A stretch of DNA of 64,000 bases from Saccharopolyspora gloriosae. Its GTDB lineage: Bacteria; Actinomycetota; Actinomycetes; Mycobacteriales; Pseudonocardiaceae. Where the stretch lies: NCBI RefSeq assembly GCF_022828475.1, contig NZ_CP059557.1:5503470-5567469 (forward strand), written 5' to 3'. The translations under genes were made by a program, and so were the position numbers. The notes under the pieces were generated by a model. It was not told the DNA's origin, ran no database searches, and saw only the letters and a program-made list of their open reading frames with translations. Position 1 is the first letter of the stretch, and the number at the start of each line of letters is the position of its first letter. Below, in pieces: positions 41,400 to 51,647 of the stretch.

Positions 41400-43142
41400 G
41401 TGACCGAGATCGCATCCGAGTCCATTTCGGGGCGGGACGAGCACACCTCGTCCGAGGACGTCGACGACCTGCCGCGCGACCGCTTCCAGCGGCTCCGCGA
41501 AGGTCCGCTCGGTCCCCGGCTGTTGCTGCTGTCGGCTCTGATCCCGCCGTTGATGATGCTGCGGGAAGTGCTGCGCTCGCCTCAGCTGCATTTCTACGAC
41601 TACTGGTGGGTCCTGCTGGACATCACCGGTGAAGACGGCTCGCTGAGGCCGGAGGCGCTGTTCGGTTTCCGCAACGAGCATCCGTTCGTGCTGCCGAGCC
41701 TGCTGTTCTGGCTCAGCGCCCGGTTCGGCCACGGCCTGAACCACCCGCTAGGGCTGGTGGTGCTGGCCTTCGGCGTGGGCTGCGTGCTGCTGGTGTGGGC
41801 GATGCTGCCCGCCTCGCTCGGCCGCTGGCAGCGCGCCGGGCTGGTGCTGGCGACCTCGACGCTGGTGTTCAACCCGCACGGCATCCACAACTTCGTGCGC
41901 TCCATGAGCGGCGCCTCGTGGATCTTGGCGATGCTGCTGGTGCTGGGCGCGCTGCTGGCGATGCAGCGGGGGCGGTTGTCGATCGCCGTGGTGCTGGGAC
42001 TGCTGGCGTCGATCAGCTACGGAACCTCGTTCGCGGTGTGGCCCGCGCTCTCGCTGGTCACCTGGATGCGCGGCGAACGGCGTGGACGCGTCGCCACCCC
42101 GATGATCGTCGGAGTCGTTGTGGTCGCGACCTGGCTGGTGCTGCGCGGACCGCAAGGCGGCGGTGGCGCCTCGCCCACCGACGATCCGGCGCAGGCCCTG
42201 CTGGCGGGGCTGAGCATGCTCGGCATGGTGTGGACGGGCACCGAACCGTCCGTGGCGCTGGTCGCCGGGGTGGCCGGGCTGGCGCTGCTCGCCGTGCACC
42301 TGCCCGGCTGCCTGCAGCGCCCCGAGCACCGCTCGGCGAGCGCGCCCTGGTGGGGTCTCGCGGTGTACGCCGCGGGCTGCGCGGTGATGATCTCCGGTTC
42401 ACGAGCCGCGTTCGGCGAGTCCGCGGGCCTGCAGAGCCGCTACAACAGCATGACCGCCGCGCTGTGGATCGCGGTGCTCGTGATCACCGTGGCCTGGGCG
42501 CGCTGGCCCGCGGTGCGGTCGGTGGCGGTGTTCACCACCGTGCTGAGCACCGTGGCGCTGGGCGCCCCGATGGCGCAGACGGTCCGCGAGGACGCACCGA
42601 ACCAGCAGCTGCTCGCCGTCGCCGCCGAGGTCGGTGCGACCGACGCCTTCACCGACCGCTTCCCGTCCCCCGAGCAGCTGCTGCCGCGGATGCGCGCGCT
42701 GGGGCACTACCCGTTCTCCGATGAGTTCACGCTGGGCTGCGGCGACGACGTGGAGATCGGCTCGCGGGTGAACACCGCGAGCTGGCGGGTGCCGAGCGTC
42801 GGGAGCTACCGCGAACCGCGCCCGGCGGGCTGGGACGTGATCCTCAACGTGGAGACCGACCAGCTCCAAGGCGGCGCGCGGATGCTCAAGGGCTGGGCGA
42901 TCTCCGGCATCGAACGCGCCCAGTGCGTGGCGGTGCTGGATCAGACCGGGAAGGTCGTCGGCGGCGGTGTCGTGGACATCCCGCGCTCCGACGCCGAAAG
43001 CCAGACCGTCGGCATCGAGATCGGCCTCGGCTACCGCGCGGTGGCCCCGGCGACGAGCACCGGCCCGTTGCGCGTCGCGTTCCGCTTCCCGGACGGCTGG
43101 TGGGTCCGTCCTCTCACGGAGAACCCGGAGGTGGCGTCATGA
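41400..43142 (+). CDS. polytopic membrane protein of unknown function, paired with a glycosyltransferase
   Basis: A 580-residue protein with about 10 membrane helices between residues 40 and 400 and a soluble, extracytoplasmic-looking C-terminal domain of about 180 residues. Helices include LLLLSALIPPLMMLREVL and LGLVVLAFGVGCVLLVWAML. Between the first two helices, DYWW and FGFRNEHPF resemble the acidic loop of GT-C glycosyltransferases, so it may use a lipid-linked sugar. The family is not recognised with certainty. GTG at 41400 follows GGGGAAA. Its stop overlaps the next gene, a polyprenol-sugar type GT2, as ATGA, which implies a joint role in glycosylating a surface polymer or lipid. Confidence 0.75.
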   Translation: MTEIASESISGRDEHTSSEDVDDLPRDRFQRLREGPLGPRLLLLSALIPPLMMLREVLRSPQLHFYDYWWVLLDITGEDGSLRPEALFGFRNEHPFVLPSLLFWLSARFGHGLNHPLGLVVLAFGVGCVLLVWAMLPASLGRWQRAGLVLATSTLVFNPHGIHNFVRSMSGASWILAMLLVLGALLAMQRGRLSIAVVLGLLASISYGTSFAVWPALSLVTWMRGERRGRVATPMIVGVVVVATWLVLRGPQGGGGASPTDDPAQALLAGLSMLGMVWTGTEPSVALVAGVAGLALLAVHLPGCLQRPEHRSASAPWWGLAVYAAGCAVMISGSRAAFGESAGLQSRYNSMTAALWIAVLVITVAWARWPAVRSVAVFTTVLSTVALGAPMAQTVREDAPNQQLLAVAAEVGATDAFTDRFPSPEQLLPRMRALGHYPFSDEFTLGCGDDVEIGSRVNTASWRVPSVGSYREPRPAGWDVILNVETDQLQGGARMLKGWAISGIERAQCVAVLDQTGKVVGGGVVDIPRSDAESQTVGIEIGLGYRAVAPATSTGPLRVAFRFPDGWWVRPLTENPEVAS

Positions 43143-44113
43143 GCGAACCCGCGACCGGCGAGGTCGAGGTCTCGTTGCTGGCTCCGGCGAAGAACGAGGC
43201 CGAGAGCCTGCCGAAGCTGTTCGCCGAGATCAGTGCCGCGATGGACGCTCAGCCGCGCAGCTGGGAGCTGTTGATCGTCGACGACGGCAGCACCGACGAC
43301 GGCTGGCGCGTCATCAGCGAGCACGCCGCGGCGGATCCGCGCGTTCGGGGGCTGCGGTTGCGGCGCAACTTCGGCAAAGCGGCCGCGCTGGCCGCCGGTG
43401 TGGCCGAGGTCCGCGGGCGGCTGCTGGTCACCCTGGACGCGGACCTGCAGGACGATCCCTCGGAGGTGCCGCGGCTGCTCGCCGAGCTCGACGCGGGAGC
43501 CGACCTGGTCAGCGGGCACAAGGCGCAGCGCAAGGACCCGCTGGGCAAGCGGCTGCCGTCGAAGTTCTTCAACTGGATGACCGGCGTGATCACCGGCCTG
43601 CGGCTGTCGGATCACAACTGCGGCCTCAAGGCGGCCCGCACCGAGGTCTATCGGCGGGTGCCGCTGTACGGCGAGCTGCACCGCTACATCCCGGCGCTGG
43701 CTCACCAGCTGGGCTACCGGGTCCGGGAGCTTCCGGTGCACCACCGGGCGCGCGAGCACGGCAAGTCGAAGTACGGACTGGAGCGCTACGTGCGCGGTGC
43801 GCTGGACCTGCTGACGGTGGTGGCGCTGACCCGCTACGGGCGGCGGCCCGCGCACCTGTTCGGCGGGCTCGGTGTGGTCGCCGGTGCGCTCGGCACCTTG
43901 ATTCTGCTGTACCTGACCGGGGTGTGGATGTTCACCGAGAGCCCGATCGGGACCCGGCCGCTGTTGACGCTGGGCATCCTGCTGGAGATCTTCTCGGTGC
44001 AGATGATCTCCACCGGTCTGCTCGCCGAGCTCGTGCTGCACCGGACCGGGCGGGATGAGGACGTCACCGACCTCGTCGCGGACAGCACGGTGCCCGCGCG
44101 CTCCGCCGCCTGA
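43139..44113 (+). CDS. GT2 glycosyltransferase with two C-terminal membrane helices (DPM1/GtrB-like)
   Basis: A 324-residue GT-A enzyme. Nucleotide-sugar binding is shown by LLIVDDGSTDDGW and the metal-binding LVTLDADLQDDPSEVP; the acceptor region follows in HNCGLKAARTEVYRRVPLYGELHRYIP. HHRAREHGKSKYG precedes two hydrophobic segments (about 245-275 and 285-305). This matches polyprenyl-phosphate sugar transferases. It is translationally coupled to the polytopic membrane protein, a natural user of the lipid-linked sugar. ATG at 43139. Confidence 0.92.
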   Translation: MSEPATGEVEVSLLAPAKNEAESLPKLFAEISAAMDAQPRSWELLIVDDGSTDDGWRVISEHAAADPRVRGLRLRRNFGKAAALAAGVAEVRGRLLVTLDADLQDDPSEVPRLLAELDAGADLVSGHKAQRKDPLGKRLPSKFFNWMTGVITGLRLSDHNCGLKAARTEVYRRVPLYGELHRYIPALAHQLGYRVRELPVHHRAREHGKSKYGLERYVRGALDLLTVVALTRYGRRPAHLFGGLGVVAGALGTLILLYLTGVWMFTESPIGTRPLLTLGILLEIFSVQMISTGLLAELVLHRTGRDEDVTDLVADSTVPARSAA

Positions 44114-44207
44114 TCCACGCGATCGGCTGGTTCCCGGCCCCGCCCGCTTCCCGTCCGGCACGGCAAACGAGCGGACAGCGCGCGGCGGGCCGCCTAGCAT
44201 CCAGTCC

Positions 44208-44927
44208 ATGCTGACCGATCAGGAGCTCGAACTGGTGCGGCGGGCGACGGCGGTGCTCGACGACGCCACGGTGAACGACAACCACCAGGTCTCGGCCGCC
44301 GCATACGACGCGCGCGGTGCGGTCTTCACCGGGATGAACGTTTCGCACTTCACCGGAGGACCGTGCGCGGAACCGGTGGTGATCGGGCAGGCCGCCGCCG
44401 CGGGCGCGGCACCGTTGACGACGATCGTCGCCGTGCTGGCGCGCGGCATGCGGGTCATCCCGCCCTGCGGTCGATGCAGGCAGCAGCTGTTCGACTACTA
44501 CCCGGACGCGCGGGCGATCATCCGGGCCAAGAACGGGCTGGAGTCGGTACCGATCACCGAGCTGCTCCCGTTCCCATACGACTACCTGGACTACGCACCG
44601 GACGGCCCGCCGCCCGCGCTGTACGTGTGGGACCACTACCTGGACGCGATCCGCAGCGGAACCAAGCGCAGCACGATTCGCGTGCACGACCCGGTCGCCC
44701 CGGGGCCGGTCCGGCTGATCTTCGAGCACGACGACGATCCGGCGACCACGCTGACCGCCGAAGTGACCGGGGTCGAACGGCGAACCGTCGCTGAGCTCAC
44801 CGATCAGGACGCGGAGCTGGACGGCTTCGCGGACTTGGGCGAGCTGCGCTCGGCGCTCGACTCGCACTACCCGGGACTGGTCGATTCCACGGAGATCGAC
44901 ATCGTGCGGTTCAAGACCACCGGCTGA
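44208..44927 (+). CDS. fusion of a blasticidin-S-deaminase-like cytidine deaminase and a YqfB-like ASCH domain
   Basis: A 239-residue two-domain protein. Residues 1-127 are a cytidine deaminase with PCAEP (Cys53 zinc ligand, Glu55 catalytic) and PCGRCRQ (Cys87, Cys90). TIVAV, the RVIPPCGRCRQQLFDYYPD stretch and the VPITELLPFPY ending resemble blasticidin S deaminase more than housekeeping CDA. Residues 137-239 form an ASCH domain close to E. coli YqfB, the N4-acetylcytidine amidohydrolase: GTKRSTIR aligns with YqfB GRKTITIR, so Lys153 and Thr156 match its Lys21 and Thr24, and both end ELxxxxxxxYPG. ATG at 44208 opens it. The two steps, deacylation and deamination of cytidine derivatives, would run in sequence (inference). 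Confidence 0.85.
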   Translation: MLTDQELELVRRATAVLDDATVNDNHQVSAAAYDARGAVFTGMNVSHFTGGPCAEPVVIGQAAAAGAAPLTTIVAVLARGMRVIPPCGRCRQQLFDYYPDARAIIRAKNGLESVPITELLPFPYDYLDYAPDGPPPALYVWDHYLDAIRSGTKRSTIRVHDPVAPGPVRLIFEHDDDPATTLTAEVTGVERRTVAELTDQDAELDGFADLGELRSALDSHYPGLVDSTEIDIVRFKTTG

Positions 44928-44948
44928 GGAACACGGCACCGTCGGTCA

Positions 44949-45062
44949 GCATGAAGTCGGGACCGGCTACGAGGCACCCGGTTCCCAGTGCGCTGCACCA
45001 CGCGGTCAGCTGCGGGTGGACCTGCTGGTGAACCTCGCCCGAACCTGGCCGCCCGCATACCG
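44949..45062 (+). pseudogene. internally deleted copy of the araC gene at 50922
   Basis: Positions 44949-45020 align closely with 50912-50987 of the intact AraC gene (shared blocks AGCATGAAGTCG, CACCCGGTTCCC, GCGCTGCACC, GCGGTCAGCTGCGG). Positions 45021-45062 then align with about 51288-51330 (CTGCTGGTG, ACCTCGCCCGAAC, ATACCG). About 300 bases between are missing, and the frame is broken by single-base gaps. It sits at the left edge of the exporter/flavoprotein cassette. The intact copy is at the right edge. Confidence 0.8.
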
Positions 45063-45063
45063 C

Positions 45064-46362
45064 TCAGCGCCGATGTCCGGGTCTGCTCAGGCACACCGCG
45101 AGGACGACCAGGGCGGGCAGCAGGGAGAGCGCGACGAGCGTGCCGTGGTACGAACTCGACCATCCCCGGCCCACGGCGAGCACGAGCGGGCCGATCGCGG
45201 AGGCACCGATGACGGCCGCGTGCACGGCGCCGCGTAGGACGCCGAGACGGCCGGGGCCGACGCAGCCGCGGAACGCGACCGCCTTGAACGTGCGGATCCC
45301 ACCGACGCAGGCGCCGAGAGCCAGGCCGTAGACGAGCGCGCTCCAGCCCGGGCGCACCCATCCGGCGCCGATGGTGGTGAGTGCCAGGAGCACCATGACG
45401 GCGACGACGAGTGCGCGGTCGCCGATGTAATCGGCCGACCAGCCGACGAGGAAGCTCGCCAGTAGTCCCGCGAGCAGTTGCGGGACGAAGTTGGCGGCCG
45501 CCTCGGCGACGTCCAGTCCGCGTTCCCCCAGCAACGAGACCTGGTGGAAGGTCAGGGCGGTGGTGATCAGGCTGCAGACGGCGGCCCCGCCGATGACGAT
45601 CCAGAAGACCGATGTCCGGCCCGCGTTGCGCAGCGTCCGGTCTGGGACGGGAGCGCCGGTTCGGACGGGTGTCCCGGGTGGGCGCCCGCGCGACGCCCCG
45701 GTCGAGCCCACGCCCGCTGCGGTGCCCGCGTCCGTCCGTACACGCCTCGGCAGGACGAGCAGCGCGGCGGGCAGCGTCAGGGCGAGGACGGCGCACCCTT
45801 CCCACTGCCACACCGCGCGCCAACCGAGATCACGGATCAGGTGCTCCAGCGCCAGCGGGGCGAGCGAGATCGCGGAGGTGCCGATCGCCGTGACGACACC
45901 CATCACCAGCCCGGTGCGCCGGTGCACGTAGACCGCCACCGCGGTGGTGGCCGCGAGGCTCAGCGCGCCCTGCCCGCCGATGCGGATGCCGACGAACGCC
46001 GTGGTCAGCCCGACGACCTCGGTGACGGTGCCTGCCGCCAGCAGGACCCCGCCGAAACAGCATCCGATCACGGCCATGGCGCGGCGCGGCCCGAGGCGGT
46101 CGAGCATCCTTCCCAGCAGCGGCATCACCAGCACACCTGCCAGGGAACCGATCGCGTGGGCCATGGCCACGGACGACCGGGACACCTGCAGGGAGGTGAT
46201 CAGCGGGTCGACGAACACCGAGATGGCCGCCGTCTGCCCCGGCGCGGTCATGGCCATGGCCACTGACGCCGAGCCGATGACCCGTCCGTGGTAGCTCCGG
46301 GTGGAGTTCCCGGGTTCACCGCCCACTGCTGTCGGATCGGGCCGACCGAAGGTTAACGACAC
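45064..46362 (-). CDS. MFS transporter
   Basis: A 432-residue 12-helix MFS protein. The loop 2-3 motif is seen as PLLGRMLDRLGPRRAMAVIG and the second-half counterpart as VGWSADYIGDRALVVAV. It resembles monocarboxylate- or oxalate/formate-type MFS carriers (QTAAISVFVDPLITSLQVSRSSVA in helix 1). GTG at 46362 has AAGGAG upstream. It forms a same-strand run with the flavoprotein and the AroDE-like gene, so it probably exports or imports the compound they handle. Confidence 0.85.
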   Translation of the reverse strand: MSLTFGRPDPTAVGGEPGNSTRSYHGRVIGSASVAMAMTAPGQTAAISVFVDPLITSLQVSRSSVAMAHAIGSLAGVLVMPLLGRMLDRLGPRRAMAVIGCCFGGVLLAAGTVTEVVGLTTAFVGIRIGGQGALSLAATTAVAVYVHRRTGLVMGVVTAIGTSAISLAPLALEHLIRDLGWRAVWQWEGCAVLALTLPAALLVLPRRVRTDAGTAAGVGSTGASRGRPPGTPVRTGAPVPDRTLRNAGRTSVFWIVIGGAAVCSLITTALTFHQVSLLGERGLDVAEAAANFVPQLLAGLLASFLVGWSADYIGDRALVVAVMVLLALTTIGAGWVRPGWSALVYGLALGACVGGIRTFKAVAFRGCVGPGRLGVLRGAVHAAVIGASAIGPLVLAVGRGWSSSYHGTLVALSLLPALVVLAVCLSRPGHRR

Positions 46363-46419
46363 GGAGGACTCCTTCAGGGGTCGGCGCGTGGCGGTGAACG
46401 CGGCTGGCCGGTCAGGACG

Positions 46420-47640
46420 TCAGGGCTTGAAGAACGAGGAGTCGTGGGTGTGCCCGAGTGCCGCCCGCCCGATCGTCGCGAGGACGTGGTCGTCGTTGTC
46501 GTGGCGTGCGTAGAAGGTGAGATCGCGCAGGATCCGTTCCACGGGGCTGGGCCGGACCAGGCTGCGGGCGCCGCAGGCGCGCACGCAGTGCTCCACCGTG
46601 TCCAGCGCGAGGTGTTCGACGAGGTGGCGGGCGCGGTTGCCGGCGCGTTGCGCTTCGGCGCGGTGACCGCCGTCCCAGAGCCGGGCGACGTGCGCCAGCC
46701 AGAGGTGCGCGGTGTCGATGTTGACCGCCATGGATCCGACGCGGTGCTGCACGTAGGGGTCGGCGGTCTTGTCCTGCCTGCGCACGTACTCGAGCGCGTA
46801 GTCGTAGGCGCCTTCGGCGGCGCCGAGGAAGCTGGCCGCGTAGTGCGGGGTGAAAGCGCTCTGCCAGCCCTGGTGCAGGTAGGCGCCCGGTTCCCCGATG
46901 AGGTTCTCCTCGGGGAGGAAGACCCGGTCGAACGTGACCACGTGGCTCGCGGTGGCGCGCATCCCGATCGGGTCCCACCACGAGTCGTCGACGGTGATCG
47001 CGGGGTCGGAGAGGTCGCACGCCAGCAGGTGCAGCCCCTCGGCCGGGCCGTCCGCGTGCCGGGCGCCGCCCGGCCCGGCGGTGTTGATCAGCAGGATGGC
47101 CCAGTCCGCTCCGGTCGCGCTGGTGGCGAAGCCCTTGCTGCCCTCCACGATCCATCCCCCGTCGACCGCGGTGATGCTGGTGCCGAACCGCGTGGTCTCA
47201 CCGGGCTTCCGCGCCTGCGGCTCCCCGCTCCAGGCGACCCAGGTCGCACCGTCGCGCACGATGCCGTCGAACCAGCGGGACCGTTGCCGCTCGGAGGCCA
47301 GCGCGTCGATGAGCACGACCGAGTTGGTGTGCCCTTCCCAGCAACGGCCGAGGGAGAGGTCGGCTTTGGCCAGCTCCTTGGTCATCAGCCAGAGCGGGAG
47401 CGTGTCCCCGTGGAGCGGGCCGAGACCGAGCCCGCCGTGCTCGCGGGGGACGGTGGCCGCGGTCAGACCGGCCGCGGTCAGGTCGTCGAAGTCCTTGCGC
47501 GGGAACTCCGCCGCCCGGTCGTACTCGTCCGCTCGCTCGGCGCACGCGTCGGTGACGTCGCCGGTACGTGCGAGCAGCTCGCGGTGCCGGGGGTCGAGCG
47601 CCTGAAGCCAGGTCGCCCCCGGGGTGTCGTCGATGCCCAT
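46420..47640 (-). CDS. acyl-CoA dehydrogenase-fold flavoprotein
   Basis: A 406-residue protein of the acyl-CoA dehydrogenase superfamily. The N-terminal helical domain includes DDLTAAGLTAATVPREHGGLG. The middle domain has ATWVAWSGEPQARKPG and GGWIVEGSKGFATSA. The C-terminus ends with a FYARHDNDDHVLATIGRAALG block instead of the usual catalytic-Glu segment of FadE enzymes. This looks more like the DszC/HsaA-type flavin monooxygenases or an oxidase than a beta-oxidation enzyme. ATG at 47640 follows GGAAGG. It is 37 bases from the AroDE-like gene and likely co-transcribed with it. Confidence 0.78.
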   Translation of the reverse strand: MGIDDTPGATWLQALDPRHRELLARTGDVTDACAERADEYDRAAEFPRKDFDDLTAAGLTAATVPREHGGLGLGPLHGDTLPLWLMTKELAKADLSLGRCWEGHTNSVVLIDALASERQRSRWFDGIVRDGATWVAWSGEPQARKPGETTRFGTSITAVDGGWIVEGSKGFATSATGADWAILLINTAGPGGARHADGPAEGLHLLACDLSDPAITVDDSWWDPIGMRATASHVVTFDRVFLPEENLIGEPGAYLHQGWQSAFTPHYAASFLGAAEGAYDYALEYVRRQDKTADPYVQHRVGSMAVNIDTAHLWLAHVARLWDGGHRAEAQRAGNRARHLVEHLALDTVEHCVRACGARSLVRPSPVERILRDLTFYARHDNDDHVLATIGRAALGHTHDSSFFKP

Positions 47641-47677: not shown

Positions 47678-49183
47678 CTAGCGGGTTCGGGTGCCCGCGG
47701 TCGTGCGCCCGGCCTGGAGCAGCGCGCGGGTCTGCTCGGTGGGGATGTGCCGGTCGGTCATGAACTGGAACTGGCACCCGGCGTCGGCGAGCAGCACGTC
47801 CCACCCGTCGATGACGGTGAGTCCGCGCTCGCGCGCCTCCCTGGCGAACGCGGTCTCGGCCGGGCCGTAGACCATGTCCACGACGGCCGCGTCGTCGCGC
47901 AGCTCGGCCGCCCGGAACGGCACCCGGTCGCGCACCGGCGTCGCGTGCACGAGGAGCGAGTATCCGTCCGCGCGGAACTCGTCCAGGGGTGTGAACCCGA
48001 CACCGAGCATCTCGGCGACCGCCCGGCCGCGCCGGTGGTCGCGGTTGACCAGCACGGGATCGGCGCCGGAGCCGGCGAGCGCGAGGACGGCGGCACGCCC
48101 GGCACCGCCACAGCCGATCACTGCGGCCTTGCGGCCGGACACGGGTGCGCCTGCGCGGGCCAGCGCCCTGCTGATCGCGGGGCTGTTGGACGTGTCGGCG
48201 TGCCAGCGGTTCCCCCGTCGCACCAGCGAGTTCGCCGCACCGGAGCCGCACGCCGCCGGGCCGGCCGTGTCGGCGGTGGCCAGCGCCGCCTCCTTGTGCG
48301 GAGCCACCACGGTGGCCGCCTGCAGTGGGAGGCCGAGCGCGGCGAGCCCGGTCCCGGCGACGTCGTCCCAGAAGGTATCGAAGTTCCCGACCTGGAACGG
48401 CAGGTACAGTGCGGGGATGCCGAGCGCCCGGTAGCCGGCGTTGTGCACGCGCGGCGACGCCGAGGCCAGGACCGAGCGGCCGACGATGCCGTACACGGTG
48501 CTCAACGGCCGCAGCTGGGGGAAGCCGTAATCGGTCACCAGCTGGTCGACGCTGGGCACCTCGGGGTCGTCGCCATCGGCCCTGCCGAACACGACGGGAG
48601 CGCCGAGCCACGGTGCCAGCACGCGGCTCCAGACCCCGGCGGCACCGGTGCCGAACGCGGTGACGTCCGACCGCCCCATGTCGTGCAGGAACCGCAGCGG
48701 CGCCAGCGCCTGCTCGGCCCGGAATGCGGCCGTCGTGAGCAGGTAGAGCTCGGCTCCCACGGCGGCCATGCGGTCGAAGCGCTCGTGGAGCGCGTCGTGC
48801 CCGGCGGCGGTTCCGTGCCAGGAGATGCGACGCCGGTGCGCCGGGATTTCGGCGAGCAGGTCGGGGACCAGGTCGCGGTCGGCTTCCAGGTCGACCACGT
48901 CGTAGTGCTCGGCCGCAGCGAGCAACCGGGCACGCCGCGCCTCCGGCGAACCTTCGAAGCGGCCACCCTGGTCACGGCTGCGCAGACAGTAGACGAGACG
49001 CTGGCCGGCATGGCGCCGCAACCGGTCCGGATCCACCTCGCCGAGGAGATCGGCCCGAACCTCGAGCAGTTCTGCCCGGTTTCGTGCTGAATCACGTTCG
49101 GGACCACTGCAGGACCGTGGATCGGTGAGCACCGCGTTGACGGCGGCGCTGCCGTGCTCCGTTCCTGGACGACCACTGCGCAT
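47678..49183 (-). CDS. AroDE-like fusion: degenerate type I dehydroquinase plus shikimate dehydrogenase fold
   Basis: A 501-residue two-domain protein. Residues 30-220 follow type I 3-dehydroquinate dehydratase: ELLEVRADLL (Glu41, Arg43), LVYCLRSRDQGG (Arg68) and SWHGT (His123). The Schiff-base Lys is absent; its place in GAELYLLTTA holds Leu. Residues 228-500 follow shikimate dehydrogenase: YGIVGRSVLASASPRVHN, APHKEAA (Lys296) and the NADP loop GCGGAGRAA. The substrate Asp of the NTD motif is replaced in WHADTSNS. The order equals plant DHQ-SDH, rare in bacteria. ATG at 49183 follows GGGAGG. It may act on a modified aromatic or cyclitol precursor, or bind only. Confidence 0.75.
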   Translation of the reverse strand: MRSGRPGTEHGSAAVNAVLTDPRSCSGPERDSARNRAELLEVRADLLGEVDPDRLRRHAGQRLVYCLRSRDQGGRFEGSPEARRARLLAAAEHYDVVDLEADRDLVPDLLAEIPAHRRRISWHGTAAGHDALHERFDRMAAVGAELYLLTTAAFRAEQALAPLRFLHDMGRSDVTAFGTGAAGVWSRVLAPWLGAPVVFGRADGDDPEVPSVDQLVTDYGFPQLRPLSTVYGIVGRSVLASASPRVHNAGYRALGIPALYLPFQVGNFDTFWDDVAGTGLAALGLPLQAATVVAPHKEAALATADTAGPAACGSGAANSLVRRGNRWHADTSNSPAISRALARAGAPVSGRKAAVIGCGGAGRAAVLALAGSGADPVLVNRDHRRGRAVAEMLGVGFTPLDEFRADGYSLLVHATPVRDRVPFRAAELRDDAAVVDMVYGPAETAFAREARERGLTVIDGWDVLLADAGCQFQFMTDRHIPTEQTRALLQAGRTTAGTRTR

Positions 49184-49262
49184 CAGAGCGACCTCCCGTT
49201 TGTGCACGGTGCGGAATCGGATCGGGCGGCTCACCCGAAATCGACGCGGAAATGTGCTTGAT

Positions 49263-50657: not shown

Positions 50658-50921
50658 GCGGTTCCTCCGGTGGTGCCCGTCGGCTTCGGCTAGCTGAGCC
50701 TGATCCAGGCGGCCACACGCATCAATGTCGCGAGGACGAAAGGGTCTCGATCCGGGACCGCCGGACGGCTCTGGAAAACGGGCGGACCCCATTCGCATCG
50801 GCACGAATGGAGCCGCGCACCGCGGGGCGTCGACGATCTCCCTCCGGTCGCCCGTTGGCGCTCACCACGGTTGTTTTCCCTGCGCAACACCACCGTCGGT
50901 GGCTTCGGGCAGCATGAAGTC

Positions 50922-51647
50922 GTGTCCCGATACCAGGAGCACCCGGTTCCCGGCGCGCTGCACCGCGCGGTCAGCTGCGGATGGACGCAGGAAGTTCCGT
51001 CCGACGGCCACCTGCAACGCGTCCTGCCCGACGGCTGCCTCGACCTGATCTGGCGCGACGGCGTGCTGGAAATGGCCGGTCCCGACACCGGACCACGACT
51101 CGTACCGCTGGCCGCGGGCGGCATCGCCGGGCTCCGGATGCGCCCCGGCGGCGCCCGGCTGCTGCTCGGCGAGGTGCCCGCCGCCGACCTCCGCGACCAG
51201 CAGGTCGAGCTGAGCGACCTGTGGGGACCACAAGCCCGGCCGGTGCTGGAACGACTCGCGGAAACCTCGCGGGCGACCGAAGCCTCGGAACTGCTGGTGG
51301 ACCTCGCCCGAACTCGGCTGCCCGAATACCGGCACGACGGGGCCGTCGCGGAGGCGGTGCGGCTGCTCGGCTTTCCCCGGCCACCGAGCGTGGCGGAGTT
51401 GTCCGAGCGGCTCGGCCTCTCGGTCCGGCAGCTGCGACGGCGGTTCACCTCGGCCGTCGGCTACGGACCGAGCACCCTGGTGAGCGTGCTGCGGTTCCAG
51501 CGCGCCCGGTCCCTCGACGCCGCCCACCTCACCGAACTCGCCGCCACCGCCGGGTACGCCGACCAAGCCCATCTGAGCAGGCAGGTGCGGCGGCTGTCGG
51601 GGCTCACCGCCGCCGAACTGCTCAGCGGCCGTACGCGCGCAAGGTGA
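50922..51647 (+). CDS. AraC-family transcriptional regulator
   Basis: A 241-residue regulator. The N-terminal half has the DUF6597-type sensor pattern (HRAVSCGWTQ ... VLPDGCLDLIWRDGVLEMAGPDT ... GLRMRPGGARLLLG). The C-terminal AraC domain has two HTH units: PSVAELSERLGLSVRQLRRRF and LTELAATAGYADQAHLSRQVRRLSG. The start is uncertain; GTG at 50922 fits the conserved N-terminus but has no strong ribosome site. It lies divergent to the PepSY gene. A deleted copy of this gene is at 44949-45062. The 3' end overlaps the convergent cyclase-fold gene by 26 bases. Confidence 0.87.
   Translation: MSRYQEHPVPGALHRAVSCGWTQEVPSDGHLQRVLPDGCLDLIWRDGVLEMAGPDTGPRLVPLAAGGIAGLRMRPGGARLLLGEVPAADLRDQQVELSDLWGPQARPVLERLAETSRATEASELLVDLARTRLPEYRHDGAVAEAVRLLGFPRPPSVAELSERLGLSVRQLRRRFTSAVGYGPSTLVSVLRFQRARSLDAAHLTELAATAGYADQAHLSRQVRRLSGLTAAELLSGRTRAR

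Follow-up and report, generated by a model that had tools for sequence, protein, structure and literature searches.

The window analysed here, a 64,000-nucleotide stretch of the Saccharopolyspora gloriosae genome (assembly GCF_022828475.1, contig NZ_CP059557.1, positions 5,503,470 to 5,567,469), contains at 44208–44927 on the plus strand an open reading frame (ORF; stop included) for a 239-residue protein in which a blasticidin S deaminase (BSD)-like domain is joined to an ASCH domain resembling Escherichia coli YqfB. The ORF begins with an ATG, and three relatives within the genus have an ATG at the matching place. The first domain covers residues 2–124 (44211–44579, plus strand, as are all features of this gene) and includes the zinc site and catalytic glutamate, i.e., Cys53, Glu55, Cys87, and Cys90 together with Arg89 (44364–44477). 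A linker of residues 125–136 (44580–44615), variable in length and sequence when the fusions are aligned, leads to the ASCH domain of residues 137–236 (44616–44915), which holds a KxxTxR motif formed by Lys153, Thr156, and Arg158 (44664–44681), followed by Asp205 (44820–44822) and Tyr221 (44868–44870). Pfam matched residues 6–96 to dCMP_cyt_deam_1 (27.2 bits; cut-off 25) and residues 139–234 to ASCH (46.1 bits; cut-off 21.2), and a Pfam scan of 18 fusions (E 0.01) recovered the ASCH domain in all 18 and the deaminase region in 17. Because the same two-domain protein was found in other genomes and on plasmids, the fusion is neither a chance product nor an assembly join. An AlphaFold2 model of the fusion, computed with 32 aligned proteins as input, had a mean predicted local distance difference test score (pLDDT) of 92.6 and a predicted template modeling score (pTM) of 0.70.

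By sequence and modeled fold, the N-terminal half is assigned to the BSDs rather than to the cytidine deaminases (CDAs). A phmmer search of the PDB returned BSDs as the best matches (E 2e-31 to 9e-31, with 1wn5 at 2e-31) and CDAs at 6e-8 and weaker, and among the 50 Foldseek rows shown the template modeling (TM) scores normalized to the target were 0.83–0.90 for BSDs (0.89 for 1wn6) and 0.68–0.78 for CDAs. Alignment to 1wn5, considered with 2z3i (E56Q) and 2z3j (R90K), equates Cys53, Glu55, Cys87, Arg89, and Cys90 with Cys54, Glu56, Cys88, Arg90, and Cys91 of Aspergillus terreus BSD; the first two and Cys87 are present in 18 of 18 aligned fusions, and Cys90 is present in 15, with Asp in the other three. 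In a maximum-likelihood tree, a branch with support 97/91 separates 26 fusions, 18 free bacterial BSDs, and two fungal BSDs from eight CDA-type rows. A single clade of fusions within this tree was rejected (approximately unbiased test, p-AU 8e-7), to which free BSDs lying among the Streptomyces fusions contribute. The curated NCBIfam models of cytidine deaminase gave hits below their cut-offs (PRK06848, 77.8 of 131 bits; PRK05578, 56.9 of 74; TIGR01354, 55.6 of 113.65). In a CDA model, the residues that grip the ribose are Asn42, Glu44, Ala46, and Tyr48 (PMC9897663). Glu44 is found in seven of the eight CDA-type rows, the remaining one being a divergent sequence without the motif, versus none of the 46 rows made up of fusions, free BSDs, and fungal BSDs; in these the column holds Tyr (31 rows), Phe, Ser, His, Ala, or Leu and is followed by an HFTGG-type stretch. 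The Glu44/Ala46/Tyr48 segment is thus not present in the fusion; Asn42 is kept in 25 of 25 fusions. As a separate observation, one free BSD-like protein carries Asp in place of the first zinc Cys (GGPDAE for GGPCAE).

The C-terminal half most resembles YqfB. When a profile built from 12 fused ASCH domains was compared with the PDB, YqfB was the best match (1te7, E 6e-8; 9kyf, 2.5e-7), and apart from deaminases the best Foldseek match of the rows shown was again E. coli YqfB (9kyf, and 9kyh with N4-acetylcytidine [ac4C] bound; E 4e-8, target-normalized TM score 0.83). Most of the catalytic residues are retained: YqfB Lys21, Thr24, Arg26, and Tyr89 correspond to Lys153, Thr156, Arg158, and Tyr221, identical in 18 of 18 aligned fusions, and Glu74 corresponds to Asp205 (Asp in 15 fusions and Glu in three). 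These four positions and the acid persist down to approximately 40% overall identity among the fusions. For YqfB, of which ac4C is a substrate, the K21A, T24A, and R26A variants are reported to be inactive, and slowdowns are given as 100- to 1000-fold for E74A, more than tenfold for H70A, and more than threefold for Y89A (PMC6972931). YqfB and four analogues also hydrolyze N4-benzoylcytidine, and the same source reports no nucleic acid binding by the analogues under its tested conditions (PMC9599836). A second actinobacterial ASCH type (GRKTATIRLGDKS) possesses KxxTxR as well and, judged by eye, has an acidic residue and a Tyr close to where YqfB carries them. The preliminary description of this locus, made from the letters alone, had proposed a single protein of 239 residues that joins a zinc deaminase (Cys53, Glu55, Cys87, and Cys90) resembling BSD to a YqfB-like ASCH domain with Lys153 and Thr156 at the places of YqfB Lys21 and Thr24; the ORF, the Pfam matches, the recurrence elsewhere, the alignments, and the sequence, profile, and predicted-fold matches all agree with it. 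Of the two acidic partners that it had named, Asp205 aligns with YqfB Glu74 and Glu203 does not.

The two halves have remained linked. Distances calculated half by half among 25 fusions correlate (Mantel r 0.85, 0 of 9999 permutations), a result that fits joint inheritance, which predicts it. Free ASCH proteins of this subfamily (six genomes and the NBC_01431 plasmid) group with four fused ones (support 99/99) inside the fused ASCH tree, and so are most simply explained as fusions that lost the deaminase half. In Streptomyces, a separate BSD is present elsewhere in all six genomes with a free ASCH, the figure for non-fusion genomes as a whole being 94 of 279 (hypergeometric 0.0013). None of the 16 genomes that carry a fusion has a separate BSD at E 1e-25 (0.0018). 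These figures are uncorrected for relatedness (G908 and G950 look closely related) and rest on at most nine candidates scored per genome. Viewed from the ASCH side, 14 of 14 carriers of the subfamily in the family Pseudonocardiaceae have it fused (two in frame-broken form), and 23 of 23 in Streptomyces have a fused or separate BSD. Within the genus, three comparisons gave ratios of nonsynonymous to synonymous substitution (dN/dS) of 0.12–0.40 for both halves, indicating purifying selection, with identities of 85–94% for the BSD half versus 70–75% for the ASCH half.

The fusion forms a family that recurs across actinobacteria. With the pairs G532/NFXS83 and G728/NBC_01276 each counted once, it was found in four of six sampled Saccharopolyspora genomes, as 12 intact and two frame-broken copies in 297 genomes of Pseudonocardiaceae, and in intact form in 15 of 295 Streptomyces genomes, among which one further genome holds an internally shortened copy, one a fragment, and six a free ASCH. 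A phylum-wide sample of 396 genomes gave a full-length match in two (this genome and one from Streptomyces) among the matches listed. In the plasmid collection, matches spanning 80% or more of the protein occur in six records out of 72,556 (four from Streptomyces, one from Curtobacterium, and one from Rhodococcus), and the five that were inspected are annotated as "ASCH domain-containing protein". No fusion from outside Actinomycetota was seen in the plasmid, phage, and viral collections, which are not a full survey (all plasmid records at the 80% level are from Actinomycetota); the contig scan that started from this protein reaches close relatives only. The frame-broken copies, from two genomes of one genus, are decaying genes, consistent with a conditional benefit. 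Two Streptomyces loci lie near contig ends, one (G917) within approximately 110 kb and the other (G880) within approximately 15 kb of both; in G880 the two fusion copies have equal scores and frame lengths, as expected from terminal inverted repeats. A phage or viral origin was rejected, as peptide patterns revealed no relative on viral contigs and one weak phage record matched the deaminase part only. A role in anti-phage defense was likewise rejected, as PADLOC gave no match.

Among relatives, the fusion is present or absent as a single gene. Two genomes with an empty site (G474 and G441) share the left flank up to window positions 44101 and 44083, respectively, and within approximately 30 bases resume with sequence like that from 50909 onward, and two others (G515 and NFXS83) possess the fusion and lack the block that in this genome extends to 50907. 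This 6 kb block encodes an MFS transporter, an acyl-CoA dehydrogenase, a PepSY protein, and a single protein with type I dehydroquinase and shikimate dehydrogenase domains (47681–49234, minus strand) in the region without a counterpart in the two close relatives. It is framed by imperfect direct repeats of approximately 80 bases, 82–92% alike (44942–45021 and 50905–50986; the second copy overlaps an AraC-type gene at its start), which point to the way in which the block was acquired. The accessory-block location assigned to the gene in the preliminary description therefore holds in part: the fusion is a presence/absence gene, but it adjoins a neighborhood shared across the genus, which includes the genes for ribosomal proteins L21 and L27 and Obg. 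The 6 kb block, on the other side of the gene, is an insert in its own right in this genome. Comparison of the neighbors at 35 loci (fusions, two broken copies, and one free ASCH; our own rough gene calling) uncovered no recurring family beyond genus synteny except in three groups of three or four loci. An operon partner was therefore rejected: what three or more loci have in common comes down to the fusion, synteny at the level of the genus, and these groups, namely G728/NBC_01276 (which seem to be a single plasmid) together with G827 and G915; G477 with G732 and G915; and G880 with G941 and the Rhodococcus plasmid, the last group sharing an IS5-type transposase. Rfam detected no structured RNA in window positions 43000–46500.

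The amicetin group of antibiotics carries an N4-acylated cytosine; for amicetin, the p-aminobenzoic acid (PABA) arm described in PMC12856912 supports this. We favor, at roughly an even chance of being right, the view that the fusion is a self-contained bifunctional enzyme that detoxifies cytosine nucleoside antibiotics. The ASCH half would act as a YqfB-type amidohydrolase (Lys153 as base, Thr156 as nucleophile, Arg158 in the oxyanion hole, and Asp205 as acid) and strip the acyl group from the cytosine N4 of, for example, amicetin-type compounds; the BSD half, acting as a zinc deaminase, would then hydrolyze the exposed 4-amino group to convert cytosine to uracil, and it would also act directly on antibiotics with a free N4, such as blasticidin S. 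The gene itself would be gained or lost singly. The evidence establishes the two domains with their predicted folds, the retention of most catalytic residues, the joint inheritance of the halves, and the presence or absence of the fusion as a single gene; the two activities, the order of the steps, and the antibiotic substrates we infer. Deacylation followed by deamination is the most likely course because nucleoside salvage is unlikely (see below), amicetin, plicacetin, bamicetin, and the streptcytosines are Streptomyces products (PMC4278220), a ribosomal cytosine contact is common to amicetin and blasticidin S (PMC12856912), and YqfB enzymes hydrolyze N4-benzoylcytidine. This last compound holds an aryl amide like that of the PABA arm of amicetin (PMC12856912), so its acceptance by YqfB and four analogues supports an acyl-antibiotic substrate. 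Of the two-step channel put forward in the preliminary description, the linked role of the halves gains support from the folds, the profile search, and the correlated distances, but physical channeling is hypothetical; its suggestion of antibiotic inactivation is the one we prefer, by inference only.

Several observations weigh against this view, in addition to the uncorrected relatedness behind the co-occurrence figures. The seven residues that are fully conserved in YqfB-like proteins are incomplete in the fusions: the positions of His70 (Asp201; Asp in 17 and Gln in one) and Asp27 (Val159; Val, Phe, Ile, or Tyr) are changed and Glu74 is Asp or Glu, while Tyr89 is kept. The NCBIfam model for YqfB (NF003443) matched one of 18 fusions, weakly (E 0.0006), and this protein and 16 others gave no match at E 0.001, so the ASCH half is a YqfB-like subfamily and not a YqfB orthologue. 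KxxTxR is shared by 10 of the 26 further ASCH domains, of unassigned function, that were matched in 119 actinobacterial genomes; the motif therefore narrows the choice without settling or proving amidohydrolase activity. In all three comparisons, dN/dS is greater for the ASCH half than for the BSD half, in the third only slightly. Tetrameric CDAs can convert N4-acylcytidines directly to uridine (PMC9897663), so that a separate deacylase is not strictly needed. No antibiotic gene cluster was seen in the eight window neighbors scanned, for which no dedicated cluster search was run. Finally, Cys90 (PCGRC) is replaced by Asp (PCGRD) in seven of 25 fusions, which form a Streptomyces subgroup; Asp90 may be an unusual zinc ligand or may mark a dead deaminase. 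Three free BSDs likewise have Asp at this position, and the five Asp90 fusions that come from whole genomes have no second BSD match in those genomes.

Another explanation is that the protein combines two uncoupled resistance activities, the BSD half acting on blasticidin-type compounds and the ASCH half on N4-acylated antibiotics whose deacylated products are weak. Each half does resemble a stand-alone enzyme, and many genomes hold a free BSD but not this type of ASCH (of the 94 non-fusion Streptomyces genomes with a BSD, six also have a free ASCH and one a fragment). In the two sets searched, however, every genome with the ASCH subfamily also had a BSD, as counted above for the family and for Streptomyces, and we regard independence as unlikely.

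Nucleoside salvage, also raised in the preliminary description as a route from N4-acylcytidine to cytidine to uridine, would have the ASCH half deacetylate ac4C from RNA breakdown and the deaminase half yield uridine. The nearness of the ASCH half to YqfB in profile and fold, and the use of ac4C by YqfB, speak for it. Of 27 fusion genomes, none matched PF13718 or PF05636, which we take to be the TmcA/NAT10-type and TmcAL-type ac4C writers, whereas among the controls 3 of 14 and 4 of 14 genomes did, respectively; this genome also contains a separate cytidine deaminase (163 bits, above the cut-off of 74). The cell is therefore unlikely to salvage its own ac4C, and the missing CDA ribose-binding segment, with Glu44 replaced and its surroundings different, further disfavors this route. 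Scavenged foreign ac4C or an unlisted writer may serve as a source, and with these included we still judge salvage clearly unlikely. That the ASCH half is a PUA-like domain that only binds or positions the substrate or an RNA, leaving deamination as the sole chemistry, is improbable to us, since the catalytic positions of YqfB are retained among distant fusions and the YqfB analogues were described as not binding nucleic acid. A working ASCH half attached to a deaminase that is structural or being lost would fit the Asp90 fusions and the free ASCH copies, but is very improbable given the intact zinc residues here, the greater conservation of the BSD half, and the other BSD in each of the six free-ASCH genomes.

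The detoxification reading can be extended in time. Because free forms lie among the fusions in the deaminase tree, the fused form could be ancestral to the whole BSD clade, such that an N4-deacylase half would have disappeared from the free BSDs of bacteria and from the fungal ones that serve as selection markers, and the original targets would have been N4-acylated cytosine antibiotics; the root of the tree is unsure because of the long branch to the CDAs, and we hold this extension to be possible yet doubtful.

No published description of a BSD-ASCH fusion was found in the literature searched, which took in passages of PMC6972931, PMC9599836, PMC9897663, PMC10688628, and PMC7641849; a mention is possible in older surveys of the ASCH superfamily (Bioinformatics 2006) and the deaminase fold (NAR 2011) and in work on the S. 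lividans BSD. The parts are of known kinds; the fusion as a conserved family with a lasting pairing is not in the literature that we found. Should the fusion have both activities, a single small protein would overcome two defenses of amicetin-type antibiotics, namely the acyl shield and the cytosine beneath it. This would provide a natural function for one protein of the ASCH superfamily, which is poorly understood, account for the lasting pairing of deaminase and deacylase, and supply N4-acylcytidine prodrugs with an enzyme for both steps. Work on such prodrugs has to date combined YqfB with the endogenous cytidine deaminase of the cell (PMC10688628).

Comparison with the known enzymes places the fusion as follows. 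It shares with the BSDs of A. terreus (1wn5/1wn6) and C. immitis (3oj6) the fold, the zinc ligands, the catalytic Glu, the Arg90 equivalent, and the HFTGG-type loop, at approximately 46% identity across the domain, whereas the solved BSD chains are single-domain proteins of 130–158 residues and the fusion adds a C-terminal ASCH domain and has Ser at position 46. With the tetrameric CDAs (such as CDA_F14 and Bacillus subtilis Cdd) it has in common the deaminase fold and the Cys-Glu-Cys-Cys zinc site, but it is without their ribose-binding segment and lies on the other side of the tree. In comparison to E. coli YqfB (1te7 and 9kyf–9kyh), to which it is 27% identical, the fusion possesses the ASCH fold and the equivalents of Lys21, Thr24, Arg26, and Tyr89, with Glu74 as Asp or Glu, but it is without His70 and Asp27 and has a deaminase attached.
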